From the IMG/VR virus record IMGVR_UViG_3300030090_005624, positions 1,424 through 38,494 of that record: DNA of 37,071 nt. One strand, written 5' to 3'. Each line of letters begins with the position of its first letter. Positions within the stretch are counted from its first letter, which is position 1. Source of the DNA: a virus. Below the pieces are notes generated by a model. That model had not been told where the DNA came from and made no database searches. It saw nothing but the letters and a program-made list of their open reading frames with translations. This document shows positions 23 through 13,611 of this stretch, one piece after another. Position numbers and translations under genes: made by a program.

Positions 23-400
23 GTGCAGGTATACTATAACTTGCACAAAAAATGTTTGTCAATTAGGTACAAAGGAAAAGTCATCGAACACGCTCGCGAA
101 GTTACTTTGACAGATGCGAAGTTTCATGTTCAGCCTGCAGGCCGTGCGCGTGTACTTCGTGAAAAGAAAAAGAACGTGCACGCTTACGTTTCGGGAAAGT
201 TAAAAGAAAGTTTTTGGTTTACACAAGCACCCGCCTACGTTTGGACTGCTGAAAAGCGCGTGACATACAACCCATATAAAAACGAAACTTTCGTTGATAA
301 ATCAAACAACGAAATTGTAACCAGCGCAGAGGTTGTACATATTGCAGACAAAGTTATAACTGCTGGACAATTTGATCAAAAAAATCGTCGAGCTTGGTAG
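23..400 (+). CDS. Conserved phage hypothetical protein, 125 aa
   Basis: The reading frame opens with GTG at 23, preceded by an AAAAGG ribosome-binding site 4-5 nt upstream, and ends at TAG 398-400. The protein is basic and mixed alpha/beta in character. Its start (YYNLHKKCLS followed by KGKVIEHAREV) and an internal Arg/Lys-rich patch (RARVLREKKKNVHAYV) resemble a small hypothetical protein that I recall from marine tailed phages. No catalytic motif is visible. It is the only plus-strand gene in the first 4.3 kb and converges with the minus-strand array ending at 535. The true upstream context lies outside the window. Function unknown. Confidence 0.8.
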   Translation: MQVYYNLHKKCLSIRYKGKVIEHAREVTLTDAKFHVQPAGRARVLREKKKNVHAYVSGKLKESFWFTQAPAYVWTAEKRVTYNPYKNETFVDKSNNEIVTSAEVVHIADKVITAGQFDQKNRRAW

Positions 401-498
401 GTCGAATTGAGTGACAACTAAATACGAAACCAATAAATAGTAAATACAAAATCTCAAGCACTATGTAAACAATTATTAAAAAAATTAAATTTTATAAT

Positions 499-518
499 CG
501 GCGGGGCCCCCCGAGGGG
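499..518. repeat. GC-rich hairpin block (copy a)
   Basis: GGGGCCCC (503-510) overlaps a CCCC-CCGA-GGGG stem in a strongly AT-rich surrounding. It lies just past the stop codon of the minus-strand 53-aa gene and before the end of the plus-strand gene, so it could end transcription from either side. Similar GGGGCCCC-centred blocks occur near 1065, 2340 and 2650. Confidence 0.6.
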
Positions 519-519
519 T

Positions 520-535
520 TGGCACGGTTCTTGCT
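520..535 (+). promoter_or_regulatory. Perfect sigma-54 (-24/-12) sequence match
   Basis: TGGCAC-GGTTC-TTGCT, with GG at 521-522 and GC at 533-534 separated by exactly 10 nt, matches the RpoN consensus. It points rightwards into the antisense of the small gene 535-696, where no plus-strand gene is credible. It is either an antisense/regulatory promoter or a by-product of the GC-rich cassette next to it. Only the sequence match is certain. Confidence 0.4.
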
Positions 536-696
536 TAGTGCATCCAGCTGCCTCCCTCCAATGCGCTCCAATCGCGCTCCTCAGAAAAAACCTCCTCCAA
601 CTCCACCTCACCAGCGAAGTCGTGCTGCTTGGCCTCACGCGTCAGAGCCGCGTCCTGCTCATTCATCCAGTCGATATGCTTATCCTTTTCACTCAT
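535..696 (-). CDS. Small acidic hypothetical protein, 53 aa
   Basis: ATG at 696 runs to TAA at 535. The product (start MSEKDKHIDWMNEQD, end ALEGGSWMH) is acidic and probably helical. No family is recognised. The start is set by a TTGACT/TAAACT promoter whose -10 ends 9 nt before the ATG, with no room for a ribosome-binding site. It is the last gene of the minus-strand small-gene array and is followed by the GC-rich hairpin at 499-518. Confidence 0.65.
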   Translation of the reverse strand: MSEKDKHIDWMNEQDAALTREAKQHDFAGEVELEEVFSEERDWSALEGGSWMH

Positions 697-705
697 AACA
701 AAAAC

Positions 706-733
706 AGTTTAACAGAATTTAAAAAAAAGTCAA
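706..733 (-). promoter_or_regulatory. Sigma-70-like promoter of the 53-aa gene
   Basis: On the minus strand, -35 TTGACT (728-733), a 16-nt spacer and -10 TAAACT (706-711). The -10 ends 9 nt before the ATG at 696, so the transcript would be almost leaderless. Confidence 0.65.
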
Positions 734-742
734 CTAAAAAAA

Positions 743-964
743 TCAATCCGCGAGCGTGTCGTAGGGAACGAGATTGGCATAAGGGTCATCGCTCCAAACA
801 ACCTCACCCTTGAACGTGACGCAAGCGCCATTATCAAAGGCCAACTTAATGGCCTTTTCAAGACCATCGTGAGAACGCGGAAAACCAGCAGTGCCAAGCT
901 CCCACTCCACCTGATACATATCAGCCAACATTTCGTCGAACGAGTTCAGTTTCATATCTCTCAT
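743..964 (-). CDS. Small hypothetical protein, 73 aa
   Basis: It starts with ATGAGAGAT (MRD), the start signature shared by the array, and ends at TGA 743-745. The product is acidic and mixed, containing FDEMLADMYQVEWELG and a possible strand-rich C-terminal half (ACVTFKGEVVWSDD). Its promoter abuts the start codon. No known domain recognised. Probably an early-expressed host-takeover type gene, judged by context only. Confidence 0.75.
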   Translation of the reverse strand: MRDMKLNSFDEMLADMYQVEWELGTAGFPRSHDGLEKAIKLAFDNGACVTFKGEVVWSDDPYANLVPYDTLAD

Positions 965-974
965 AACGGAAAAC

Positions 975-1002
975 AGTATATCACACTTTCAGATAATTGC
1001 AA
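975..1002 (-). promoter_or_regulatory. Sigma-70-like leaderless promoter
   Basis: -35 TTGCAA (997-1002), 16-nt spacer, -10 TATACT (975-980), then 10 nt to the ATG at 964. Upstream on the minus strand lies an A-rich tract (about 1003-1034) that could act as an UP element, preceded by GC block b. Its closest relative in the window is the promoter at 2554-2581. Confidence 0.75.
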
Positions 1003-1042
1003 CCTTTTTTTTGCATTTTTATTTATTTTTTTTACACGCAAC

Positions 1043-1078
1043 TTGGCACGACATCTGCTGGCCAGGGGGGCCCCGCCC
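1043..1078. repeat. Regulatory cassette element b: TTGGCAC plus GGGGCCCC block
   Basis: Contains TGGCAC-GACAT-CTGCT (1044-1059), a one-mismatch version of the sigma-54 consensus, and GGGGCCCC (1067-1074). Element d at 2623-2667 has the same order and orientation. Short inverted repeats (TGGC/GCCA) suggest structure in RNA. It lies between the end of the 67-aa gene and the promoter of the next gene. Confidence 0.6.
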
Positions 1079-1107
1079 AAAGTTGTCAAGTTTTATTTTA
1101 GGAAGGC

Positions 1108-1126
1108 GGCTAGGATTAACCTAGCC
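1108..1126. terminator. Perfect 7-bp stem hairpin
   Basis: GGCTAGG-ATTAA-CCTAGCC, a 7-bp stem with a 5-nt loop, placed 15 nt after the stop of the minus-strand 67-aa gene. The downstream minus sequence is AT-rich without a pure T-run, so termination strength is uncertain. Confidence 0.6.
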
Positions 1127-1141
1127 ACCTCCCATCGAACC

Positions 1142-1345
1142 CTACATGATGTTGATGCCTTGGCGCTTGAACCATCGGCGCAACTCGTGGATTGCCTTTT
1201 CGCTCGGGTGAGCGAGGTACGGCGTGACCTCTGGGTTTGGGGAAAAGTAGAACGTGCCTTTCCTTGTAGGCTCGAGACGAAAGCCGAGCTTCAGCGCTTT
1301 GCGCTCGATTTTTTTGTAGGTAGAAGATTGATGCTTGTTTGCCAT
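1142..1345 (-). CDS. Small basic hypothetical protein, 67 aa
   Basis: ATG at 1345 is chosen over an upstream TTG because AAAGGA lies 9 nt before it. The product is strongly basic: an N-terminal KHQSSTYKKIERKALK helix, a central GTFYFSPNP turn and a C-terminal helix (HELRRWFKRQGINIM). The charge would suit nucleic-acid binding, but no family is recognised. It follows the 81-aa gene by 24 nt with its own ribosome-binding site, so the two share one promoter. It is followed by the hairpin at 1108-1126. Confidence 0.7.
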   Translation of the reverse strand: MANKHQSSTYKKIERKALKLGFRLEPTRKGTFYFSPNPEVTPYLAHPSEKAIHELRRWFKRQGINIM

Positions 1346-1369
1346 ACTCAATTATCCTTTGTAACATTA

Positions 1370-1615
1370 TTATTTTCCGAAGTAGTCGTGGTCTACAAAA
1401 GCTCGGTCAACTCCAACAACTTCCCAAACGTCTCCGTTTGTCCATTGATTATTGAACTTCTCAGCCTCAAAAAGTTTGACCATGTCCTCCTGCTTTGTTT
1501 CGATTGGAAACGTGGTGTGAACTCGGGTGCAGCTTGCATGGATATGCTCGCCTGTAAACTCAGGATTTCTGCGGGTCTTAAAAACTATATTCCAGAATTC
1601 TTTCTTTTCTCTCAT
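1370..1615 (-). CDS. Small hypothetical protein, 81 aa
   Basis: The start at 1615 gives MREKKEFWN and matches the ATGAGAGA signature of the array. A longer in-frame start at 1654 would run through the promoter and is rejected. The product has a strand-rich middle and ends with VWEVVGVDRAFVDHDYFGK. No known domain recognised. First gene of a two-gene unit with 1142-1345. Confidence 0.7.
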   Translation of the reverse strand: MREKKEFWNIVFKTRRNPEFTGEHIHASCTRVHTTFPIETKQEDMVKLFEAEKFNNQWTNGDVWEVVGVDRAFVDHDYFGK

Positions 1616-1625
1616 AACTTCAAAC

Positions 1626-1654
1626 AGTCTATCACAATTTTCTCCAAAAGTCAA
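1626..1654 (-). promoter_or_regulatory. Sigma-70-like leaderless promoter
   Basis: -35 TTGACT (1649-1654), 17-nt spacer, -10 TAGACT (1626-1631), 10 nt to the ATG at 1615. Confidence 0.75.
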
Positions 1655-1663
1655 GAACTTTTT

Positions 1664-1837
1664 TTACCTTTCGTCGAGCATATCTTCGTGGCAGTCGGTG
1701 CAGATCGTCCCGTGGTCGCATGGATTCCACCACCTCCAAACTTCGATTTCTCCACCCCATTGGCTCTTGGCTCCATCTTCTCTCTGGCACACTTGGCAAA
1801 CCAGTACTTCTTCATTTTTTGTTGTCATTTCTCTCAT
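1664..1837 (-). CDS. Small cysteine-rich, probably zinc-binding protein, 57 aa
   Basis: This ORF runs from ATG 1837 (MREMTTKNEEV) to TAA 1664. It has Cys14 and Cys17 in a CxxC knuckle, then Cys40, His42, and a second CxxC (Cys46, Cys49) followed by His50. That arrangement fits one treble-clef or zinc-ribbon-like site, with aromatic residues (IEVWRWWNP) between the knuckles. It starts with the array's ATGAGAGA signature and has its own abutting promoter. Possible roles include binding a host protein or nucleic acid; none can be assigned. Confidence 0.7.
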   Translation of the reverse strand: MREMTTKNEEVLVCQVCQREDGAKSQWGGEIEVWRWWNPCDHGTICTDCHEDMLDER

Positions 1838-1847
1838 AACTCAAAAC

Positions 1848-1877
1848 AGTCTATCACAATTCTTTTCAAAAGTCAAC
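1848..1877 (-). promoter_or_regulatory. Sigma-70-like leaderless promoter
   Basis: -35 TTGACT (1872-1877), 18-nt spacer, -10 TAGACT (1848-1853), 10 nt to the ATG at 1837. Confidence 0.7.
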
Positions 1878-1880
1878 ACT

Positions 1881-2087
1881 TTATTTCAACTTTTTTTCCA
1901 TGTGGTCAGCCCATTCTTTGGCTCGCCTTTCGCGGTCTGCGATTGCCAACATCGGAAAATCTTTGTCCTTTTGCGTTGGTGGTAGTGTGAACATTCCGCG
2001 TTTGAATTGTTCCCACGTTGGGCGGTCGATTGGGTGAATGTTTTCCCATGCTCGTTTCAGTGCTTTTCTTTGTTCTATTTCTCTCAT
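1881..2087 (-). CDS. Small basic hypothetical protein, 68 aa
   Basis: ATG at 2087 (MREIEQRKALKRAWENI) is preferred over an upstream in-frame ATG at 2120, because a promoter lies between the two. The product is rich in Lys, Arg and Glu and probably helical at both ends (last residues AKEWADHMEKKLK). No known domain recognised. Only 3 nt separate its stop from the -35 of the next gene's promoter. Confidence 0.7.
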   Translation of the reverse strand: MREIEQRKALKRAWENIHPIDRPTWEQFKRGMFTLPPTQKDKDFPMLAIADRERRAKEWADHMEKKLK

Positions 2088-2097
2088 GTCGGTATCT

Positions 2098-2125
2098 AGT
2101 ATACAGATTTTTTTGATCAAGTCAA
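2098..2125 (-). promoter_or_regulatory. Sigma-70-like leaderless promoter
   Basis: -35 TTGACT (2120-2125), 16-nt spacer, -10 TATACT (2098-2103), 10 nt to the ATG at 2087. It begins 3 nt beyond the stop of the 36-aa gene. Confidence 0.75.
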
Positions 2126-2128
2126 GTC

Positions 2129-2239
2129 TTAAAACGGTATTTTGTTGACTAAAAAGTCAACTGCCTTGTCGATGAATTCGTTCGTGGCATCAACCGCCTT
2201 TTCGATTTTTTCGTTGAGTTTGTCTATCACGTTCAACAT
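2129..2239 (-). CDS. Micropeptide, 36 aa
   Basis: ATG 2239 to TAA 2129 encodes MLNVIDKLNEKIEKAVD, continuing with a second heptad-like stretch ending FLVNKIPF. It is one amphipathic helix with alternating hydrophobic and charged residues. Its own promoter (TTTAAT -10 ending 6 nt before the ATG) and the lack of any alternative gene here support it. Such a helix could bind a membrane surface or a host protein; function unknown. Confidence 0.55.
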   Translation of the reverse strand: MLNVIDKLNEKIEKAVDATNEFIDKAVDFLVNKIPF

Positions 2240-2245
2240 GCGTAT

Positions 2246-2274
2246 ATTAAACCACAGATTGACCCGAAAGTCAA
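2246..2274 (-). promoter_or_regulatory. Sigma-70-like leaderless promoter
   Basis: -35 TTGACT (2269-2274), 17-nt spacer, -10 TTTAAT (2246-2251), 6 nt to the ATG at 2239. It shares a TCAATC...TGGTTTAAT core with the promoter at 4006-4034. Upstream on the minus strand are an A-rich tract and GC block c. Confidence 0.7.
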
Positions 2275-2314
2275 CACTTTATTTCATCTTTTTTTTCTTT
2301 TTTTTATCTGATAA

Positions 2315-2357
2315 TGAGACACAGTCTCAACGCGGCGGGGCCCCCGCTGAGCGCGGG
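2315..2357. repeat. Regulatory cassette element c: two hairpins around GGGGCCCC
   Basis: TGAGAC-ACA-GTCTCA (2315-2329) is a perfect 6-bp stem. It is followed by GGGGCCCC and CCCGC-TGAGC-GCGGG (2343-2357). The pair sits between the stop of the 56-aa gene and the A-tract/promoter of the 36-aa gene, the same place that blocks b and d occupy. Confidence 0.65.
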
Positions 2358-2372
2358 TACGTCAACTATTTT

Positions 2373-2543
2373 TTATTCGCACTCCCAACACATGAAATTT
2401 TCAAGGTTGTGCCATTCGGCAGCTTCATCGTGGTCGATGTGGTGCTGCTCGCCGCATCCGCAACAAGTGCAGGAAACCAGTTCAGTGTGAGCATAGAAGT
2501 TGGACTCAAAAACCTCTTCGCAAGTAATGTTCATATCTCTCAT
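2373..2543 (-). CDS. Small Cys/His-rich, probably zinc-binding protein, 56 aa
   Basis: ATG 2543 to TAA 2373. It begins MRDMNITCEEVFESN. The NxxCEEVFExN stretch recurs in the 56-aa product of 3790-3960, so the two share an N-terminal segment. The middle carries Cys25, Cys27, Cys28, Cys30 and His34, His35, His38, and the C-terminus a CxxC (Cys52, Cys55), enough ligands for one or two zinc ions. The dense cysteines argue for an intracellular protein. Function unknown. Confidence 0.7.
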   Translation of the reverse strand: MRDMNITCEEVFESNFYAHTELVSCTCCGCGEQHHIDHDEAAEWHNLENFMCWECE

Positions 2544-2553
2544 AACTGGAAAC

Positions 2554-2581
2554 AGTATAGCACAGTCTCAGAGAATTGCAA
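2554..2581 (-). promoter_or_regulatory. Sigma-70-like leaderless promoter
   Basis: -35 TTGCAA (2576-2581), 16-nt spacer, -10 TATACT (2554-2559), 10 nt to the ATG at 2543. An A-tract (about 2594-2611) and element d lie upstream on the minus strand. Confidence 0.75.
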
Positions 2582-2622
2582 CACTTTATTTCACTTTTTT
2601 TATTTTTTTTTAGCCCATGACT

Positions 2623-2667
2623 TGGCACACAACATGCTGTGCCTGGGGGGCCCCGCCCGAGGGCGGG
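2623..2667. repeat. Regulatory cassette element d: two hairpins around GGGGCCCC
   Basis: GGCACA-N8-TGTGCC (2624-2643) is followed by GGGGCCCC and the stem CCCGCCC-GA-GGGCGGG (2652-2667). TGGCAC-ACAAC-ATGCT (2623-2638) also resembles a sigma-54 element with one mismatch in the -12 box. Placed 15 nt past the hydrolase stop, it could terminate that transcript before the next promoter. Confidence 0.65.
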
Positions 2668-2682
2668 TGTGTCAACTACTTT

Positions 2683-3153
2683 TTATAGTTTATAAAAAGC
2701 GTGCTGACCGATTACCTTGACGGGTTTCTGTCCCTTTGCCCAGTACGGTTTCTTTTTCATCCACGTTGCGTGGTAGTGGTTGGCGTAGCCAATGAACTGG
2801 CGTGACAAACTCTTGACGTTCTTCGCCACGGTGATGGCGTAGCTTGCCTGTGGTGTCTTGAGTAGATGCTCAAGATCTTTAACGCTCTTGCCATTCCAAC
2901 AACTGAACTGCCACTTCTTGAGGCAAACCTCTGTTGGTGTTCGTTTACGTTCAAACGCTCGCTGCGCTATGCACGCACCAACCGCATACATACCAGCCTC
3001 ACCCTCACCTCTAGCCTCTGCTAGTATAGTAATGGCAACCACCTTAACCTCATGAGTTAACTGATGGTTTTTATGTGTGTGATTAGCTTGTGCGCTAGTC
3101 CACCACAACAAGCAACTGCTTACAGTCAACGCCGTGGCGCAAGTGCGTGGCAT
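2683..3153 (-). CDS. SleB/CwlJ-family cell-wall hydrolase with signal peptide (probable endolysin)
   Basis: This is a Hydrolase_2 (SleB-like) peptidoglycan-cleaving domain. The motifs are AEARGEGEAGMYAVGACIAQR, PTEVCLKKWQFSCWN and the C-terminal YANHYHATW followed by IGQHAFYKL. The Glu in AEARGE is the usual catalytic candidate. The start at 3153 has GATAGG 7 nt upstream and gives a short signal peptide (MPRTCATALTVSS, hydrophobic core, SAQA cleavage site), so export by Sec is likely. An in-frame ATG at 3198 would add 15 residues but has no ribosome-binding site. It probably degrades the host wall at lysis, although it sits in the early-type array, far from the virion genes. Confidence 0.85.
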   Translation of the reverse strand: MPRTCATALTVSSCLLWWTSAQANHTHKNHQLTHEVKVVAITILAEARGEGEAGMYAVGACIAQRAFERKRTPTEVCLKKWQFSCWNGKSVKDLEHLLKTPQASYAITVAKNVKSLSRQFIGYANHYHATWMKKKPYWAKGQKPVKVIGQHAFYKL

Positions 3154-3304
3154 CTTGTAACCTATCTTGATTAGCTTCAACAAAGTCTTGAGTAACATAG
3201 TAATTCTTTTTTTTAAGTTTATGATTATTTTTATCTATTAAGGCAAATGCAGTATTGTCATTTACTACTGTCAACAACCAACCGAGGTCAGAGGATGTAG
3301 TCAT
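3095..3304 (-). CDS. Possible small overlapping gene, 69 aa
   Basis: ATG 3304 lies 17 nt inside the end of the acidic gene and directly after a GAGGAGGAGG run that could pair with 16S rRNA, which suggests translational coupling. The product includes DLGWLLTVVNDNTAFALID and KNYYVTQDFVEANQDRLQD, which read like real protein. Its last 59 nt overlap the hydrolase start in another frame. It explains an otherwise empty 130-nt gap, but its small size and double overlap keep this a moderate call. Function unknown. Confidence 0.4.
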   Translation of the reverse strand: MTTSSDLGWLLTVVNDNTAFALIDKNNHKLKKKNYYVTQDFVEANQDRLQDATHLRHGVDCKQLLVVVD

Positions 3305-3554
3305 CCTCCTCCTCGTCGGCGTACTCGTCATCACGTTCCCAGCTAAAGCGTTCGCTTGGATCGCGTCCGATGCTCATGTCGATGATATTCTCATCGTTAG
3401 AGTCTCCAACGTAATCATCGTATGGGTTAGTACCCATGATGTCACGTTCACAATCAATCTCGTCCTGCGATGCGTAGTTGTTCGCAGAGTAGTGTTCAGC
3501 GTTTATGATATTATCGTCCATAACTTCGTTTAATGTATCAGAAAAATTGTCCAT
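3288..3554 (-). CDS. Highly acidic hypothetical protein, 88 aa
   Basis: ATG 3554 has AAAAGG 6 nt upstream; an upstream TTG is rejected. It follows the 57-aa gene by 15 nt and shares its promoter. The product is extremely acidic, with DDEYADEEEDDYIL at the C-terminus and Asp/Asn-rich low-complexity sequence throughout. Its charge resembles DNA-mimic phage proteins, but that is only an analogy from composition. No family recognised. Confidence 0.7.
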   Translation of the reverse strand: MDNFSDTLNEVMDDNIINAEHYSANNYASQDEIDCERDIMGTNPYDDYVGDSNDENIIDMSIGRDPSERFSWERDDEYADEEEDDYIL

Positions 3555-3569
3555 TGTCAACCTTTTATT

Positions 3570-3743
3570 TTATGCTTCCAAGTATTTCACGCAGTCCTCA
3601 ACAGACCAATCATTTCTCATGGCCCATTCAACCGCACCTTCAACGTCGCAGTATTGGCGTACTTCGTCGCACACCAAAGACTCAACTTCAGCCAAGAACT
3701 TCTGGGAGTTCAACTCGTTCATCGTATGTGGATTATCTCTCAT
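3570..3743 (-). CDS. Small acidic hypothetical protein, 57 aa
   Basis: ATG 3743 (MRDNPHTMNELNSQ) to TAA 3570. The product is acidic and helical, with Cys25, Cys32 and Cys51. The end, EWAMRNDWSVEDCVKYLEA, looks like a compact helical hairpin of UBA/CUE type, but this is not certain. It starts with the array's ATGAGAGA signature and is the first gene of a unit with 3288-3554. Function unknown. Confidence 0.7.
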   Translation of the reverse strand: MRDNPHTMNELNSQKFLAEVESLVCDEVRQYCDVEGAVEWAMRNDWSVEDCVKYLEA

Positions 3744-3753
3744 AACGGGAATC

Positions 3754-3781
3754 AGTATATCAGATTTTTTTGAAAAGTCAA
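3754..3781 (-). promoter_or_regulatory. Sigma-70-like leaderless promoter
   Basis: -35 TTGACT (3776-3781), 16-nt spacer, -10 TATACT (3754-3759), 10 nt to the ATG at 3743. Confidence 0.75.
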
Positions 3782-3789
3782 CCTTTTTT

Positions 3790-3960
3790 TTACTTTTTTA
3801 TGTCAACTCCGAGGGCATTCCAGAACGCCTCTTCAGCGTATGCTCGCATCCATTCGGCATCCTCGTCCTGCGCTTTGATGGCATCATTCTGCCACTCATC
3901 ACACATTGCATTCAACTCGAAGACCTCTTCACAACTCAGGTTATCAAACGTAGTATTCAT
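3790..3960 (-). CDS. Small acidic hypothetical protein, 56 aa
   Basis: ATG 3960 to TAA 3790 encodes MNTTFDNLSCEEVFELN, then an acidic, helical, Trp-rich remainder (DAEWMRAYAEEAFWNALG). The N-terminal CEEVFE motif is shared with the product of 2373-2543. Unlike its neighbours it has a leader of about 40 nt between -10 and start and lacks the ATGAGAGA signature. First gene of the array on this strand. Function unknown. Confidence 0.65.
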   Translation of the reverse strand: MNTTFDNLSCEEVFELNAMCDEWQNDAIKAQDEDAEWMRAYAEEAFWNALGVDIKK

Positions 3961-4005
3961 TTTTTTATTCGTTAGGCGGTGGGCTTTCCCTCACTCGCTG
4001 GAAAC

Positions 4006-4034
4006 ATTAAACCATGGATTGAGGAAAAAGTCAA
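4006..4034 (-). promoter_or_regulatory. Sigma-70-like promoter with longer leader
   Basis: -35 TTGACT (4029-4034), 17-nt spacer, -10 TTTAAT (4006-4011), 45 nt to the ATG at 3960. An A-rich tract (about 4048-4065) lies upstream on the minus strand, then the hairpin element at 4078-4093. Confidence 0.7.
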
Positions 4035-4077
4035 CACCTAAAACAACTTTTTTTTATTTTTTTTTCGTGCGTCGCAT

Positions 4078-4128
4078 AGCACATGCCGTGCCAACACACC
4101 CCGTTTTTTCAAAAAAATTGACGCGTCA
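4078..4128. promoter_or_regulatory. Intergenic element e: TTGGCAC repeat and 10-bp palindrome
   Basis: On the minus strand TGGCAC-GGCAT-GTGCT (4078-4093) repeats the motif of elements b and d in the opposite orientation; it also forms a GCAC/GTGC stem. TGACGCGTCA (4119-4128) is a perfect palindrome followed on the minus strand by a T-run. The gap 3961-4326 holds no gene. It carries the promoter at 4006-4034, this element and the sigma-54 promoter at 4299-4314; I see nothing else defined in it. Confidence 0.45.
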
Positions 4129-4298
4129 GGTGGGGCTACGCAGGGGTACGGCCTATTTTTCAATATCGACTAGAGTCTCCCACAAACCAAATAAAGCTAG
4201 ACACAAAAAAAATCCGAGCCCGCATCTCCCCAGACAGAATGTATAAAAAACAACAGAGAAGAAATTAAAATCCCGCGAATACTCTAATAAAAATAAAA

Positions 4299-4314
4299 TG
4301 GCACAATATTTGCT
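4299..4314 (+). promoter_or_regulatory. Perfect sigma-54 (RpoN) promoter of the ammonium transporter
   Basis: TGGCAC-AATAT-TTGCT matches the -24/-12 consensus at every conserved base, with GG (4300-4301) and GC (4312-4313) 10 nt apart. Transcription would start near 4324-4326, directly at the transporter ATG (4327). Bacterial ammonium transporters are classically driven by sigma-54 with NtrC. No convincing NtrC site was seen upstream, so the activator is unknown. Confidence 0.8.
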
Positions 4315-4326
4315 AATAAAAAAATA

Positions 4327-5541
4327 ATGACTGAGCTAAAATTCATGGTAGATAATCTTTGGATATTAATCTCTGCATTATTGGTATTTATAATGCATTT
4401 AGGATTTTCTACTTTAGAAGTCGGACTAACAAGACAAAAAAATACCGTCAATGTTTTGTTTAAGAATATGTTTATTATAAGCATCGGGTTAATTACATAC
4501 GCGCTTGTAGGTTTTAATACTATGTATCCTGGTGAATTTAATAACATATTAAGCATCGGAGGTCCAATAGGATTTGTTGATGCAACTAAAAATCTAACCC
4601 ATGAATATGGTGATTATACATATTACAGTGATTTTCTGTTTCAAGCAATGTTTGCAGCCACAGGAGCAACAATTGTATCTGGAGCAGTAGCTGAACGAGT
4701 AAAATTAAGTAGTTTTCTTATTTTTGCTGCGTTGTTAGTAGGATTAGCATATCCCATTGCAGGAGCATGGAAGTGGGGTGGAGGATTTTTAGATGATATG
4801 AAGTTTTATGATTTCGCGGGCAGCTCTGTAGTTCACGCTTTTGGAGGATTCGCGGCTTTAGCGTGTGCGTGGCTTTTAGGTGCGCGTGCAGATAAGTATA
4901 AAAATAATAAAATAAACGCTCTCAACGGTCATTCTATGCCATTAGTGGCTATTGGAGTGTTCTTGTTGTGGTTTGGATGGTATGGATTTAATGGTGGCAG
5001 TGTTTTATCTGCTGATCCAGCTTCTGTTTCTTTTGTTTTTGTTACAACTTCATTGTCTGCGGCATGTGGAGTATTATCTGCAATGTTTATTTCATGGTTT
5101 AAAAACAAAAAACCAGATTATACCATTACAGCTAACGGTGCATTAGCAGGTTTAGTAGGTATAACAGCAGGTGCAGATGTTGTTTCTATATGGTCTGCAT
5201 GTGCAATCGGACTAATCTCAGGTATACTACTTGTTTTTGGTAGTGATTTAATAGAAAAAATCTTAAAAATTGATGATCCAGTCGGTGCAATTACTGTTCA
5301 TGGTATTTGCGGTGTTTGGGGAACAATCGCGGTTGGTATTTTCAGTGCTGAACACAGTATTTTAATACAAACTGCAGGATCATTAATAATCAGTGTTTTT
5401 GCTTTTGTTTTTTCTTTTATTGTTTTTGGTGCCCTTAAGAAAACTTTGGGTGTTAGAATCAATGGTGAGCTAGAACAAAAAGGTTTAGACATACTGGAAC
5501 ATGGTCATACAGCTTACCCCGACTTCCAAACAAGCTCGTAA
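4327..5541 (+). CDS. amt: Ammonium transporter (Amt/MEP/Rh family)
   Basis: A 404-aa integral membrane protein of full Amt length with about 11 predicted helices. It moves ammonium/ammonia across the inner membrane. The family motifs are intact: SGAVAERVKLSSF (118-130), WKWGGGFL (149-155), the signature DFAGSSVVHAFGG (162-174), LLWFGWYGFNGGS (213-225) and ITVHGICGVWG (322-332). The two pore histidines are H170 and H325, and D162 matches the conserved Asp. The C-terminal tail keeps GLDILEHGHTAY. No PII (glnK) gene is adjacent. ATG 4327 has no ribosome-binding site, and ATG 4345 (residue 7) is an alternative start. It is driven by the sigma-54 promoter just upstream and closed by a strong hairpin. 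Probably acquired from a host. Confidence 0.95.
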   Translation: MTELKFMVDNLWILISALLVFIMHLGFSTLEVGLTRQKNTVNVLFKNMFIISIGLITYALVGFNTMYPGEFNNILSIGGPIGFVDATKNLTHEYGDYTYYSDFLFQAMFAATGATIVSGAVAERVKLSSFLIFAALLVGLAYPIAGAWKWGGGFLDDMKFYDFAGSSVVHAFGGFAALACAWLLGARADKYKNNKINALNGHSMPLVAIGVFLLWFGWYGFNGGSVLSADPASVSFVFVTTSLSAACGVLSAMFISWFKNKKPDYTITANGALAGLVGITAGADVVSIWSACAIGLISGILLVFGSDLIEKILKIDDPVGAITVHGICGVWGTIAVGIFSAEHSILIQTAGSLIISVFAFVFSFIVFGALKKTLGVRINGELEQKGLDILEHGHTAYPDFQTSS

Positions 5542-6563: not shown

Positions 6564-7324
6564 ATCATGTTAAGTTTCTTTTTTGCTTGATTAATACGCC
6601 AACGATCTTTTTCGTCTAAATTGCCTTTTAAATGATTGTCTATTTGAGCCAGCATAGGGCTTTTCTCGCCTTGATGGTCATTTCGGATACTCTGTATACC
6701 CTTTACTAATTTAAGCAGCGTAGAAGTAGCTCCAGAGGCTGGCATTGCAAAAGGCGCGATTACTCCTGTTACCTTGATAGCAACACCCGCAAGTCCGATT
6801 AATATTACACCACCAACAATCCAATATACTTTTTGCATCAAGCTTTGGTATTTAGTAGCCATCAATGCATTTTCTTGATTAGTAGCTTCTAATTTTGCTT
6901 GTGCAGAAGATAATTTACTTTCTAGTAGTTTGTTTTGATTTTGTACAGCGACTAATTGTGAGTCAAGTTGTTGTAATAATTTTTGACCTTCTTTTTCTTG
7001 CTTTGGATCTTCAGATAACAAGTCACTTACTACTTTAGTGGACTTTATTGCATTTTCTGCTTGTGGAGGCCCTAAGGCAGTAATTCCACGAGTAGTCATT
7101 TGTTTTGCTACTTGTGAATGTTTTGAAGGAGTTGGATCTTTTTGTAACGCTTGATCTGCAGCATATACAAAAGTTCTACCGCTTTCAATTTCTTTTTCTT
7201 TGTTTTTGTCTATATTTTGACTTATGCCTGTAACAACGTCTTTTTGTTTATTAAACTTGCCCAACGGAGTTGAACAACCAGCCGCGATTAATGCTACACA
7301 AACATATGTAATTTTATTGGACAT
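6560..7324 (-). CDS. Coiled-coil lipoprotein with an internal membrane segment, 254 aa
   Basis: Starting at ATG 7324, the protein has a lipoprotein signal (MSNKITYVCVALIAAGC, acylated Cys17). A Lys/Glu/Gln-rich helical region with a coiled coil at about 110-163 follows. Then come a hydrophobic helix at about 167-190 (IVGGVILIGLAGVAIKV) and a basic C-terminus. A lipid anchor plus a second membrane helix joined by a coiled coil recalls a unimolecular spanin, which bridges both membranes at lysis. The 65-residue tail after the helix is unusual for that, so the spanin idea is only tentative. ATG overlaps the tubulin stop by 11 nt, implying coupled synthesis. An ATG 30 nt upstream would bury the signal. 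Confidence 0.65.
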   Translation of the reverse strand: MSNKITYVCVALIAAGCSTPLGKFNKQKDVVTGISQNIDKNKEKEIESGRTFVYAADQALQKDPTPSKHSQVAKQMTTRGITALGPPQAENAIKSTKVVSDLLSEDPKQEKEGQKLLQQLDSQLVAVQNQNKLLESKLSSAQAKLEATNQENALMATKYQSLMQKVYWIVGGVILIGLAGVAIKVTGVIAPFAMPASGATSTLLKLVKGIQSIRNDHQGEKSPMLAQIDNHLKGNLDEKDRWRINQAKKKLNMI

Positions 7325-8432
7325 ACTCTTTGGGAACCCATTGAGCAAAGTCAAACCATTCTTTTGCTGGCTTTAGTCCACCAATCACAGTATATACTGC
7401 AATCCCTGGCTTGTTCGACGTATAAATACCACGATGAACCATACTATCTTTTTCCAACAACCTATTAAGTTGCTCAAAACCATGTTCTAGCGCTTCTTGT
7501 GGTACATTATCCATCAATTCATTGTTTACTACCATCACACAAGCTGCTACATTACCAGTAGAAATATCTGCACCTGCTAAAATATTACGTTTTAAATTGT
7601 CACGTATTGCTTTGCTGATGTCTGTATCGTTTGCTTGCTCTGTTTTGATTGGTGTAGCTCCAAAAGTGATAATTCCAGAATTTAATACTGTGTCAAGGTC
7701 TGCCTTGTCAAAAGTAGTATACGAGCTGTCTTGTGCAGAAATCTTATTAAACAAGTGAAACAGCGAACAAACACTATTGTTGGCTGTACTCCAAAACTTA
7801 TTGACAGATAGTCCTGGATATAATTGTTTTATTTTTTCATTGTTCAAAACAATGAGTGGTGATAAAATACCATCTTTGGCATATTCAACCACTTTTTGCA
7901 TTGTTCTTTTTGTATTTTTGGCGACCTGGTTTCCTTCTGCATTGGTTGGCAAAGCAGAAATAAAACCTACTGTGGCATCAGTATTTTCTTGTGCAATTTT
8001 AAATACTACTGGCGCTCCTCCTGCGCCTGTGCCACCTCCCGCACCAGCGCAGACCAGCACTCGATCATATGTTGTGCCTAATTTTGCACGAAAAAAGTCA
8101 CAAATCTCTTCAGAGTTCTCTTGGAAAATTCTTTCTGCGGTCTCAGGATCTTTACCTGCCCCACCATGGTCGAGTAGTAATTTTCTGTCCTCGGGGATAT
8201 TAATATATTTTAAGTCCTGCTTTGCAGTGTTAATTACGCAAACTCTTCTATATCCTAAATTCCAGAATGTTTCCGCTATTCTAGATCCACCTTGACCTAC
8301 GCCAATAATCGCAAATTTATAAGCGCCGTCAAATTCGTCCTCAATTTCTTGAGTTTGAGCGTTTTCGTCGGGCATGGGAATGTCTGGCAAATCAATTCCA
8401 ATATCATCTATGTTTGAAATATCCTCTTCCAT
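7314..8432 (-). CDS. Tubulin/FtsZ-family GTPase (phage tubulin)
   Basis: A 372-aa protein with an acidic N-terminal tail (MEEDISNIDDIGIDLP) and a tubulin/FtsZ core. Landmarks are AIIGVGQGGSR (about 41-51), the tubulin signature AGAGGGTGAGGAP (about 129-139) for GTP phosphates, and DKADLD (about 242-247), the likely T7-loop acidic residues that trigger hydrolysis in the next subunit. It lacks the FtsZ C-terminal FtsA/ZipA-binding peptide. Phage tubulins such as PhuZ position replication compartments, and TubZ moves DNA; which role applies here is unknown. ATG 8432 lies 11 nt beyond a GTGTAA late-type motif. First gene of a five-gene overlapping operon. Confidence 0.9.
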   Translation of the reverse strand: MEEDISNIDDIGIDLPDIPMPDENAQTQEIEDEFDGAYKFAIIGVGQGGSRIAETFWNLGYRRVCVINTAKQDLKYINIPEDRKLLLDHGGAGKDPETAERIFQENSEEICDFFRAKLGTTYDRVLVCAGAGGGTGAGGAPVVFKIAQENTDATVGFISALPTNAEGNQVAKNTKRTMQKVVEYAKDGILSPLIVLNNEKIKQLYPGLSVNKFWSTANNSVCSLFHLFNKISAQDSSYTTFDKADLDTVLNSGIITFGATPIKTEQANDTDISKAIRDNLKRNILAGADISTGNVAACVMVVNNELMDNVPQEALEHGFEQLNRLLEKDSMVHRGIYTSNKPGIAVYTVIGGLKPAKEWFDFAQWVPKEYVQ

Positions 8433-8443
8433 GATATATATTA

Positions 8444-8449
8444 TTACAC
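8444..8449 (-). promoter_or_regulatory. GTGTAA motif upstream of the tubulin operon
   Basis: Minus-strand TTTAGTGTAATAATATATA, 11 nt before ATG 8432. One of about a dozen copies ahead of structural and associated genes. Confidence 0.55.
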
Positions 8450-8485
8450 TAAATTGAATTTTTTTCAAAAAATAAAAAAATATAT

Positions 8486-8493
8486 GTGTATAA
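8486..8493 (+). promoter_or_regulatory. GTGTATAA, variant of the late-type motif
   Basis: TATGTGTATAACTAT, 32 nt before ATG 8526. It is divergent from the tubulin copy, giving a bidirectional control region of about 90 nt. Confidence 0.4.
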
Positions 8494-8525
8494 CTATTTA
8501 CGGGTCCAACAACATACAACATACT

Positions 8526-8822
8526 ATGGCACAAGACAATAAACCAAAAATCACATTTGCTGATCTGGACAACTTTTTAAAAATCGCACCAATAATCGGC
8601 CTGGCAATTTTAGCTTATTTACAAACACTTTTTCCAAGTAAAACTGAATTTAAAGAAATACAAACTCAGTTGATACAAATGGACAAAAAAATAACGGAAA
8701 TGACTGTTTTACAAAAAGCTATAACGAGTAATACTTCAGACTTGAAACAAATTGATCAACGCCTTAGAATTTTAGAACTTGAAGTAGCACGGCACAACGC
8801 ACAAACAGATGATGTTAAATAG
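8526..8822 (+). CDS. Small membrane protein with coiled coil, 98 aa (holin-like?)
   Basis: ATG 8526 is used; an upstream ATG at 8454 would overlap the regulatory region. Residues about 22-39 (APIIGLAILAYLQTLF) form one membrane helix. The rest (about 45-90) is a helical coiled coil with heptad-like Leu/Ile spacing (ITEMTVLQKAI, LRILELEVARH). One helix followed by a coiled coil is seen in some single-TM holins and XhlA-like proteins, but also in many other membrane proteins. Overlaps the next gene by 14 nt, so the two are coupled. Function uncertain. Confidence 0.7.
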   Translation: MAQDNKPKITFADLDNFLKIAPIIGLAILAYLQTLFPSKTEFKEIQTQLIQMDKKITEMTVLQKAITSNTSDLKQIDQRLRILELEVARHNAQTDDVK

Positions 8823-10059
8823 GCGCAAATTTCTGGGCGGCATGGGCTTATCATTCATGTTGCCAAACTTAGAAGCTTTAGGAAATATTAAGCCAGACGT
8901 AAAACGCTTTGCCGCAGTATACGTTCCTAACGGAATCAATATGCACCATTGGACCCCAAGCTATCAAGGAGATTTAATTGATTTGCCTGGTACTTTGTCT
9001 CCGATGCAAGATCATATTAACAATATGCACATCTTGTCTGGATTAACTCATGATAAAGCAAGGCCAAACGGTGATGGCGCTGGAGATCACGCAAGAGCTT
9101 GTGCAACTTTTCTTACTGGTGTTCAAGCACATAAGCATGAATCTTTAATACGTTCTGGAAAATCTGTTGATCAATATCTCGCAGATAAATACAACGGAGT
9201 TACAAGATTCGACAGTTTACAATTTACAGGCTCAAAAGCTAGAATTATTGGTAAGTGTGATTCTGGCTACAGTTGTGCGTATCAATACAATTTATCATGG
9301 AAATCTGCATCTCAACCAATGGCGTCCATGTATGATCCCAAAGACATTTTCAATAGATTGTTTAACGTTGAAAAACTTGAGCAAAAGAAAAAACTATATA
9401 AAAAATCAATTTTAGATTTTGTTTTAGAAGAAAGCAAATCTTTATCTCACAATATATCATCAAAAGATAAAGCCAAACTTGACGAGTATATGTATTCTGT
9501 TCGTGAAGTAGAATTAGAGCTAGAAAGACGCGATGAATTTAATTTATCAAACAATTTTGAATTTAACTTTGATACAGAACAAAAGTCTGACAAGTTTAGA
9601 TTAATGTATAGTTTGATGCATTTAGCATTTTTAACAGATACAACTCGCGTAATAACATTTTTAACTGCGCATGATGGCTACAATGGTCCTCATAGAGAAA
9701 TAGGCGTAAATGAAGGTCATCACAGTTTATCACATCATCAAAAAGATGAAAAAAAATTAGCAGCACTTGCTAAAATTGATTTGTTTAATGTTAGATTATT
9801 TTCTGAATTTATTGACAAACTTAAAAAAGACAATTTACTAGAAAATACAGACATTATTTACGGTGCAGGCATATCTGATGGAAACAGACACAATCACGAT
9901 GAACTTCCATGTTTGTTGGTTGGTGGTAAAAATCGCAGAAAACACATACGAGTAGAAAAAGAAAAACCAATGTGCGACTTGTTTGTTAGCTTATTGCATA
10001 AGCACAATATTGAAACAAAACATTTTGGCGACTCTACTGGCGAGTTTAATATAATTTAA
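8809..10059 (+). CDS. HXXSHH (DUF1552) family protein with Tat signal
   Basis: About 416 aa. The start NRRKFLGGMGLSFMLP is a twin-arginine signal, so the folded protein is exported. The family-defining HXXSHH motif is at 305-310 (GHHSLSHH). Other family-like landmarks are GLTHDKARPNGDG (78-90), CDSGYSCAYQYNLSW (150-164) and YGAGISDGNRHNHDELP (351-367). The family (PF07586) is best known from Planctomycetes, Verrucomicrobia and some Proteobacteria. It looks related to the alkaline phosphatase/sulfatase superfamily, but no activity is established to my knowledge. In a phage it may modify the envelope or scavenge phosphate or sulfate; this is inference. Start may be ATG 8809 or 8812. Confidence 0.88.
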   Translation: MMLNRRKFLGGMGLSFMLPNLEALGNIKPDVKRFAAVYVPNGINMHHWTPSYQGDLIDLPGTLSPMQDHINNMHILSGLTHDKARPNGDGAGDHARACATFLTGVQAHKHESLIRSGKSVDQYLADKYNGVTRFDSLQFTGSKARIIGKCDSGYSCAYQYNLSWKSASQPMASMYDPKDIFNRLFNVEKLEQKKKLYKKSILDFVLEESKSLSHNISSKDKAKLDEYMYSVREVELELERRDEFNLSNNFEFNFDTEQKSDKFRLMYSLMHLAFLTDTTRVITFLTAHDGYNGPHREIGVNEGHHSLSHHQKDEKKLAALAKIDLFNVRLFSEFIDKLKKDNLLENTDIIYGAGISDGNRHNHDELPCLLVGGKNRRKHIRVEKEKPMCDLFVSLLHKHNIETKHFGDSTGEFNII

Positions 10060-12057: not shown

Positions 12058-13611
12058 TTAATTAAATTCTGCTTTCTTCGTTCCCCTCCAGTCAGGAAAC
12101 TCTGTTCTTCCAAAGTTCGGTCCGTAAGCCGTCCACATATGTACAGTCGAGCCGTGCTTGACTATAACAGGCCCCCAGTCATCAAATTTTAATCCTGGAA
12201 TATCCATTTGATTTACATATTGATGAACGCCATTCGATATTAATATATGATCATTGTCACCTGCATCCATACATCTTTGCGCCATGTTTATTCCTGCGCC
12301 ACTAACATTTGGATTATCATTGATATCTTTTACTGGGACAACGGGTCCAGAATATACTCCGTTACGTAATCCTATTTGGGGATGTTTGTAAGTCTTTTTG
12401 CCTACGTCAACAGCACACTTGAATGCAGCGTGAACAGAATTAAAGAATACGAGCGCCATACCGTCTCCTGTAGGCAATATTATTAACTTACCCTGTCTGT
12501 TTGCCTGTTGAAATCCTTCAGTACCTTTAACGTAAGATATGAGCTCATCAGTTACTCTTTTCTGTTCAGCAGTGCTCTTGTTTGAGTATCCAACAATATC
12601 CATAAAGTATGTATGAGCTTCGCAAGGACTGTCATAAACTAGTGACTCGCCTTTTAATTTAAATGGATCTTCTCCCCACTTCCATTTAATAACTCGTTGC
12701 CTTTTTTTCTTTTCTTCTTCTTGTTGAATTTTTTTTCTAGTTTCGGCGGCTTGATCTTCTTTTTGTTTCATTTGCGCTGCCGCCGCTTCTAGCCTTTTTA
12801 TTTTATCAGATTTAGACTCAAACAATTTGCCTAGCAATCCTTCTGGTTGCTTGGGAGCGTCTTCATATTCATAACCTTTAAATTCTGGCTCGCTATCACC
12901 ACCAACTTGAACTTGACTTATAGATTGTTTGTATTTAACTTGGCCTCTAGTGGAATGTTTCACTGCGCCTTTAGAAACAAGATACTTTAACATTTCCTCG
13001 TTCTCATTATCATTAGCTATTTCCCAAGGATTTAGTTGATCGAGTTCTGGTTCGAATGTAGATCCATTAACATTAGCCTTGTTTTCGAGTAATAATTTTA
13101 CTATTTCAAGATTGTTAATTTCAACTGCATAATGTATTGCCATCCACCCTCTAACGTCTCTTGCGTTTATTTTTATAGAATCATCTTCTAATAAACACTC
13201 TATTTCATCAACGTCTTGCATTTGCACAGCTTGATGTAAGTTTAAGTCTTCGCCGTAGAACTTGCCACCTTTTTTAATTAAGTTGTTTATTATTTTTGTA
13301 CGATTAGGACCTTCCGCAACGTCCATTGGGTAAACTATTGGAGTTTTGTCTGAGTTATCTTCTTCAAGGGCGAGGTTCCAGTCGTTTTGTTTTTTCTTTT
13401 CTGGAGGCACGCTTTTGATGTTTGGCGTAATTCCAGCATCTAACATTAATTGCACGATTTTAGCCTTACTGTGGTGAGAAGCATAGTGCATTGGACTCCA
13501 CCCCAGCTCTTTATCTGGAGATAAAAAAACTTTTTTATTAGTCATTTGGGACAAGGCTTTTTTTATGCCCTTAATGTTGCCGTTGATAGCTAAATTGTGT
13601 ATTTCTCCCAT
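12058..13611 (-). CDS. Ankyrin-repeat class III adenylate/guanylate-type cyclase, 517 aa
   Basis: N-terminal ankyrin repeats (about 36-66 GWSPMHYASHHSKAKIVQLM, 122-145, 152-185 RGWMAIHYAVEINNLEIVKL, 192-216) are followed by a charged coiled coil (about 268-308) and a class III nucleotide cyclase domain (about 328-500). Metal-binding Asp338 lies in TYFMDIVGYS and Asp383 in LPTGDGMALVFF. The transition-state Asn442 and Arg446 lie in GAGINMAQR. The Lys that selects ATP in adenylate cyclases is replaced by Leu/Pro, so the substrate (ATP, GTP, CTP or UTP) is open. It appears active and cytoplasmic, with the ankyrins as a sensor or adaptor. It heads a nine-gene operon and lies just downstream of a GTGTAA motif. 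Confidence 0.88.
   Translation of the reverse strand: MGEIHNLAINGNIKGIKKALSQMTNKKVFLSPDKELGWSPMHYASHHSKAKIVQLMLDAGITPNIKSVPPEKKKQNDWNLALEEDNSDKTPIVYPMDVAEGPNRTKIINNLIKKGGKFYGEDLNLHQAVQMQDVDEIECLLEDDSIKINARDVRGWMAIHYAVEINNLEIVKLLLENKANVNGSTFEPELDQLNPWEIANDNENEEMLKYLVSKGAVKHSTRGQVKYKQSISQVQVGGDSEPEFKGYEYEDAPKQPEGLLGKLFESKSDKIKRLEAAAAQMKQKEDQAAETRKKIQQEEEKKKRQRVIKWKWGEDPFKLKGESLVYDSPCEAHTYFMDIVGYSNKSTAEQKRVTDELISYVKGTEGFQQANRQGKLIILPTGDGMALVFFNSVHAAFKCAVDVGKKTYKHPQIGLRNGVYSGPVVPVKDINDNPNVSGAGINMAQRCMDAGDNDHILISNGVHQYVNQMDIPGLKFDDWGPVIVKHGSTVHMWTAYGPNFGRTEFPDWRGTKKAEFN

Follow-up and report, generated by a model that had tools for sequence, protein, structure and literature searches.

The ammonium transporter gene (amt) considered here is carried by a virus, and the sequence directly in front of it raises the question whether a phage can keep a metabolic gene under a sigma-54 promoter, i.e. 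under the regulation of its host. The stretch of DNA analysed, referred to as the window (37,071 nucleotides), covers the greater part of an IMG/VR virus record of 38.5 kb. The sigma-54 polymerase remains silent until a dedicated, signal-driven and ATP-driven enhancer-binding protein opens the complex. A phage gene under such a promoter, if it has been kept so, would be a conditional metabolic gene, which follows the regulation of the host and not the phage timetable.

The box TGGCACAATATTTGCT was located by direct reading of the sequence at 4299-4314, in front of the amt ATG at 4327. The order of the elements at the locus is AAATAAAA, TGGCAC (the -24 element, 4299..4304, plus strand), AATAT, TTGCT (the -12 element, 4310..4314, plus strand), AATAAAAAAATA and the first codons ATG ACT GAG; a TGGCAY at -24 and a TGCW at -12 are thus found at the fixed spacing which characterizes sigma-54 promoters. 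The gap between TTGCT and the ATG is 12 nt, in agreement with the first-pass annotation of this DNA. The same annotation had placed the transcription start on or next to the start codon, and this holds as well: when the C of the GC (4313) is taken as -12, simple arithmetic puts the predicted +1 at 4325 on the plus strand.

The product of amt (4327..5541, plus strand, 404 aa) was identified as an ammonium transporter by its placement in the tree and by its full-length match to the Pfam profile PF00909 (E = 9e-117), which spans positions 1-399 of 399. The best solved relative of the protein by sequence is the ammonium transporter 6eu6 (E = 2.5e-71). His170 and His325, which we take to be the pore pair from knowledge of E. 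coli AmtB, are invariant in an alignment of 16 Amt sequences (A1). With a full-length family match and both histidines kept, the protein can be assigned to the Amt/MEP/Rh family. Close Amts were found on four viral contigs with identities of 99, 83, 81 and 75%, the last of them being truncated at its 5' end; among isolated phages no amt more than 42% identical to that of the window was found. No P-II match was obtained in the seven phage records, which are possibly partial, with the amt-adjacent genes present, so the viral glnK-amtB module, where a PII gene stands beside amt, was seen in none of the seven.

The exact pattern TGGCAC-N5-TTGCT has two matches in the window, at 520 and 4299, and likewise two in the whole 38.5-kb record, where the reversed control of the pattern has none. 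The relaxed pattern TGGCAC-N6-TGCT occurs at five sites, 520, 1044, 2623 and 4299 on the plus strand and 4093 on the minus strand, all in the left 4.3 kb of the window. The amt box is not the sole occurrence of the pattern; the second exact copy at 520 and three relaxed sites had been missed by the first-pass annotation. Under a second-order Markov model 0.007 TGGCAC-N6-TGCT sites would be expected in the leftmost 5.76 kb of the record, where five are observed; for the four extra sites this value holds only with reservations, since two or more of them are located within duplicated intergenic repeats. The excess in this part of the record is confined to the N6 spacing. Since counting alone is a weak argument, the relatives were compared.

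A scan of the related phage amt loci for the -24/-12 box had been suggested together with the first-pass annotation, and it revealed TGGCAY-N6-TGCT 28-30 nt before the ATG in all of the clade loci in which the 5' end is available (4/4); the finding named there as a refutation, related phage amt loci without the box, did not occur within the clade. The boxes of the three relatives are TTGGCACAATATTTGCT (L006), TGGCATATCAAATGCT (L004) and TGGCACACCAAATGCT (L005), and the distance from the start of TGG to the ATG is 28 nt in the window, 30 nt in L006 and 29 nt in both L004 and L005. TGGCA is identical in the 4/4 phage loci, the sixth base being C or T, and so is TGCT (the -12 element is TTGCT in L006 and ATGCT in L004 and L005), while the six bases between the elements diverge. 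Calculated from the box position only, by the same -12 rule, leaders of 2 nt (window), 4 nt (L006) and 3 nt (L004 and L005) are predicted.

The four phage amt loci represent two independent lineages. The window and its close relative G003, the record of L006, are identical at 16/16 box bases, with a spacer of 12 nt in the one and 14 nt in the other showing little similarity. The similarity of G003 to the window (86%) extends to window position 4286 and restarts 11 nt before the box; G003 has an insert of approx. 1.17 kb at this point, 11 nt upstream of the box (L006 4824-5928), with two ORFs, one of which is a weak HNH and helix-turn-helix match. Between the two deeper lineages about 40% of the fourfold-degenerate amt sites are conserved, and TGGCA and TGCT are unchanged. 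The elements are therefore conserved amid diverged flanks, as is characteristic of a sigma-54 promoter, and it is this conservation, not the counting, which excludes chance: judged from the aligned loci, the amt box is not a chance match.

In approx. 70 other viral amt loci (41-58% identical) the box was absent from the 28-30 nt position in every case, and any match within up to 1 kb upstream was observed in two of them only, in L203 at -100 and in L222 at -256. The amt gene of L203 (3001-4176) lies between apparent sliding-clamp and clamp-loader genes, with TGGCAT-N6-TGCT at 2901-2916. L203 was considered as an independent second case and was rejected as near chance: a simple count predicts about 0.5 matches in the approx. 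70 kb of upstream DNA that yielded this one.

The bacterial relatives point to the origin of both the gene and its promoter. In a genome scan the box was found upstream of 24 of the 62 bacterial amt relatives, and the reversed pattern upstream of 1; it was present in 6/6 Myxococcota, 11/11 Spirochaetota, 3/4 Verrucomicrobiota and 0/18 Bacteroidota. The closest bacterial Amts so far, from a search of 388 Verrucomicrobiota genomes, have an identity of 64% or less. Among the best 30 Verrucomicrobiota amt genes 23 have the box (control 0), the distance from the box to the first in-frame ATG is 62-128 nt, and the Verrucomicrobiota boxes are as free at the base preceding TGCT as the relaxed pattern of the extra sites in the window. 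The tree unites the four phage Amts in one clade, which is nested in a clade of 21 Verrucomicrobiota Amts with a support of 99/99, and the box is carried by 20/21 of the Verrucomicrobiota genes of this enclosing clade. The N-terminal extension found in the Verrucomicrobiota Amt examined is missing from the window Amt (the bacterial ORF of L282 is 489 aa long). The first-pass annotation had left two possibilities, that the virus keeps such a promoter or that it has evolved one; the 20/21 boxed genes favour the former over the latter. Taken together with the nested position of the phage clade, they suggest as the likely history that amt and its sigma-54 promoter were taken over as a unit from Verrucomicrobiota, and that the phage gene afterwards lost its N-terminal extension and the greater part of its leader.

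A DUF1552 (HXXSHH) gene (8809..10059, plus strand; PF07586, E = 3e-81) near amt is common to these phages, and the best matches of the DUF1552 protein, 42-46%, were found in four Verrucomicrobiota genomes (20 genomes tested); one of these genomes has a DUF1552 gene on the contig that also carries an amt with the box. From gene ancestry, and not from CRISPR spacers or culture, we infer a Verrucomicrobiota host. The capsid gene was uninformative as to the host; its close relatives (G005, G008, G010 and G011) stop short of the amt region.

The four further sites require separate treatment. Site A (TGGCACGGTTCTTGCT, 520..535, plus strand) is the other match to the exact pattern; transcription from it would be antisense to a leftward small ORF. 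In G003 it is inverted at the corresponding place (G003:C1:36037-36052), as if the hairpin had been flipped. Sites B (TGGCACGACATCTGCT, 1044..1059, plus strand) and C (TGGCACACAACATGCT, 2623..2638, plus strand) are relaxed matches followed by the palindrome GGGGCCCC, 7 nt on in the case of B and 8 nt on in the case of C; G003 has two copies of site B. Site D (TGGCACGGCATGTGCT, 4078..4093, minus strand), also a relaxed match and also present in G003, is found ahead of a leftward sigma-70-like promoter and, relative to amt, 205 bp upstream of the box. Sites A, B and C face away from the neighbouring genes, into leftward ORFs, and the extra sites are partly inside GC-rich hairpin repeats. The GGGGCCCC palindromes stand in intergenic hairpins (window 503, 1067, 2337 and 2647; G003:C1 31023-38480), some of them flanked by CTTGAC...GTCAAG, and number 5 in the record of the window, 8 in G003 and 0 in the other five related records. 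GGGGCCCC also occurs without a box elsewhere in the window's record and in G003, and among the other viruses the arrangement of box plus GGGGCCCC was found in G003 only. The hairpins matched no known RNA family.

The leftward small genes of this region (340-4260) have a strong sigma-70 promoter each, TTGACT-N-TATACT, followed by a GTTATGAGAGA start. These promoters lie in a repeated upstream block with 60-83% similarity (e.g. 951-1078, 2530-2658 and 3731-3801), and the same promoter array is present in G003. Sites A-D may be sigma-54 promoters or hairpin repeats which resemble one by accident. The phage might even possess a small sigma-54 regulon of its own, consisting of the near-leaderless amt and of A-D as live promoters or polymerase-loading sites, from which antisense or hairpin RNAs would be made over the early small genes when the host activator fires; we regard this as a tentative and rather doubtful extension.

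If all of the TGGCAC-N6-TGCT sites, the amt one included, formed a single family of GC-rich intergenic hairpin repeats, they would be unrelated to sigma-54. In accordance with this, sites B and C and the G003 sites A', B and B' adjoin GGGGCCCC at a distance of 7-8 nt, GCAC-N5-GTGC dyads are formed at site D and at A' of G003, and similar TTGGCAC-N6-TGCT stretches within GC-rich repeats are found in L295, an unrelated phage. The amt box, however, has neither a hairpin nor GGGGCCCC, it is kept in the phages G001 and G002, where GGGGCCCC and further sites of this kind are both lacking, and the bacterial amt genes of the donor clade carry it as well. A hairpin origin of the amt box is therefore hardly conceivable, and because of G001 and G002 the extra sites do not carry the case for amt. 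The conserved bases could also represent the start of a coding stretch, ATG GCA CAN NNN NTG CTA, belonging to an upstream mini-ORF or to an N-terminal extension of Amt. An A precedes the box in the window, L004 and L005 and gives ATGGCA; the mini-ORF of the window (MAQYLLIKK and a stop) ends in TAATG and so overlaps the amt start, and in L005 the ATGGCA stretch is in frame with amt. But the coding reading differs in each phage, the window having a stop after 9 codons, L004 after 7 and L005 none before amt, and in L006 the ATG is replaced by TTG in another frame. Moreover, GCA and CTA keep their silent third bases although the amino acids encoded between the elements change, a pattern opposite to that expected under coding constraint; in the bacteria, the box is situated at a considerable distance upstream of amt. 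Since the frames are not conserved across the phages, both the mini-ORF and the extension were rejected as candidates, and a coding origin of the pattern must be considered very unlikely.

The box might finally be an inherited sigma-54 relic, with amt now expressed mainly from phage promoters, through read-through or late transcription, so that sigma-54 would be irrelevant in infection. Phage genomes are densely transcribed, and in L006 a weak sigma-70-like match overlaps the box. On the other hand, the box is unchanged base by base amid drifting surroundings, a terminator is located just upstream of the amt box in L004 and a strong one just before the box in L005, and no sigma-70-like promoter was found close before amt in the window or in the stretch from the terminator to amt in L005, whereas the leftward small genes have clear TTGACT/TATACT promoters. 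We consider the relic explanation unlikely and, from the sequence comparisons, infer that the amt box has sigma-54 promoter activity.

The account which we hold to be highly probable joins the capture of amt with its promoter, selection on the promoter, shortening of the leader, and transcription driven by host sigma-54 with its activator. A Verrucomicrobiota bacterium would have been the source of both the gene and its sigma-54 promoter; the promoter would have been held by selection during the loss of the N-terminal extension and of most of the 5' leader, leaving the box at 28-30 nt from the start codon. In the infected cell the host RNA polymerase with host sigma-54 would bind the box and wait as a closed complex, to be opened by a host enhancer-binding protein, most likely a response regulator of the NtrC family sensing nutrient (probably nitrogen) limitation. 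Transcription would begin near 4325, so that the leader, as deduced from the box position, would measure 2-4 nt, and the message would be translated without a Shine-Dalgarno sequence. Such a near-leaderless amt mRNA is believable, since most genes of the phage apparently have no Shine-Dalgarno sequence either. The transporter would then provide ammonium for phage synthesis. The polymerase, the sigma factor and the activator would be supplied by the host, since no phage-encoded sigma-54, enhancer-binding protein or PII was found in the available records (these are fragments, and the absence is provisional), and genomes of the candidate phylum have candidates for them: sigma-54 is present in the four Verrucomicrobiota genomes tested, and full-length NtrC-like proteins were found in 12/12 other Verrucomicrobiota genomes, all of them below the cut-off of TIGR01818 (true NtrC).

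NtrC, which the first-pass annotation had put forward as a possible activator, is unsupported so far. No NtrC-type dyad (GCAC-N7-GTGC) was found within 350 bp upstream of amt in any phage, which coincides with the earlier failure to recognise an NtrC site, and neither enhancer footprinting on six close Verrucomicrobiota genes nor dyad counts upstream of 23 Verrucomicrobiota amt genes gave anything above the reversed control. The assumption that the signal is nitrogen limitation is therefore based on the function of the gene and on general knowledge of amt regulation, and not on an enhancer site. Expression of amt only during nitrogen shortage, as expected in the first-pass annotation, is plausible but likewise unsupported so far. 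The conserved box suggests that the virus may use the stress circuitry of the host to time the production of the transporter.

Viral amt genes and the use of host nutrient regulons (PhoB, NtcA) by phages are already known; the sigma-54 variant is new. A literature search, with most subscription journals outside its scope, found no sigma-54 promoter driving a viral metabolic gene. The promoters of bacterial sigma-54 amt and glnK-amtB genes (Verrucomicrobiota, Myxococcota, Spirochaetota) have the same -24/-12 box before the same gene, but the phage box stands 28-30 nt from the start codon, compared with 62-128 nt in Verrucomicrobiota, and the phage version has neither an N-terminal extension nor, in the records, a PII gene, its predicted leader being 2-4 nt long. 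In oxygen-minimum-zone phages, glnK-amtB auxiliary genes are thought to raise ammonium uptake in infection; this viral amtB was reported together with glnK, and its origin was assigned to Bacteroidetes or Gammaproteobacteria (PMC8115048). The phages of the present clade are similar in carrying an ammonium transporter, but their amt is without glnK, is of probable Verrucomicrobiota descent and has a sigma-54 box; the scan in the earlier study covered only sigma-70 promoters and NtcA sites (PMC8115048). NtcA sites precede viral focA-nirA (PMC8115048), and cyanophage genes are under the control of the host PhoBR regulon (PMC10976474). These cases resemble the present one in that phage genes are placed under a nutrient-sensing regulator of the host; however, PhoBR and NtcA activate the sigma-70 polymerase, whereas amt here would need sigma-54 and an ATP-driven enhancer-binding protein. 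The Ostreococcus tauri virus likewise has an ammonium transporter, as cited in PMC8115048, and differs in being a virus of a eukaryotic alga, with no bacterial promoter. The conservation pattern described here provides a sequence test for retained host control, which is usable on other viral metabolic genes, and the contrast between the much longer donor spacing and the 2-4 nt leader predicted for four phages makes a near-leaderless sigma-54 message a testable proposition.

Some minor observations concern the neighbourhood of these genes. The DUF1552 gene, the function of which is unassigned, was seen at 25 viral loci (L339-L363) with 72-99% identity, and the box was present in amt carriers only. 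On a Verrucomicrobiota contig (L282, 2719-8578) a DUF1552 gene, a sigma-54 box, amt and a second, different amt lie close together. Directly 3' of amt a membrane protein with weak similarity to PHO4 phosphate transporters is encoded in L004 (4528-5481) and L005 (2785-3750). The window also encodes a tubulin/FtsZ-family protein (7314-8534, E = 1e-19) and an ankyrin-repeat protein (12058-13611), the C-terminus of which is weakly nucleotidyl-cyclase-like (E = 0.016). In the 36.6 kb of L295 there are three TTGGCAC-N6-TGCT sites (1905, 7319 and 10676; control 0), at least two of them in a GC-rich intergenic repeat, beside a repeated CGTAAGTC...GACTTACG palindrome.
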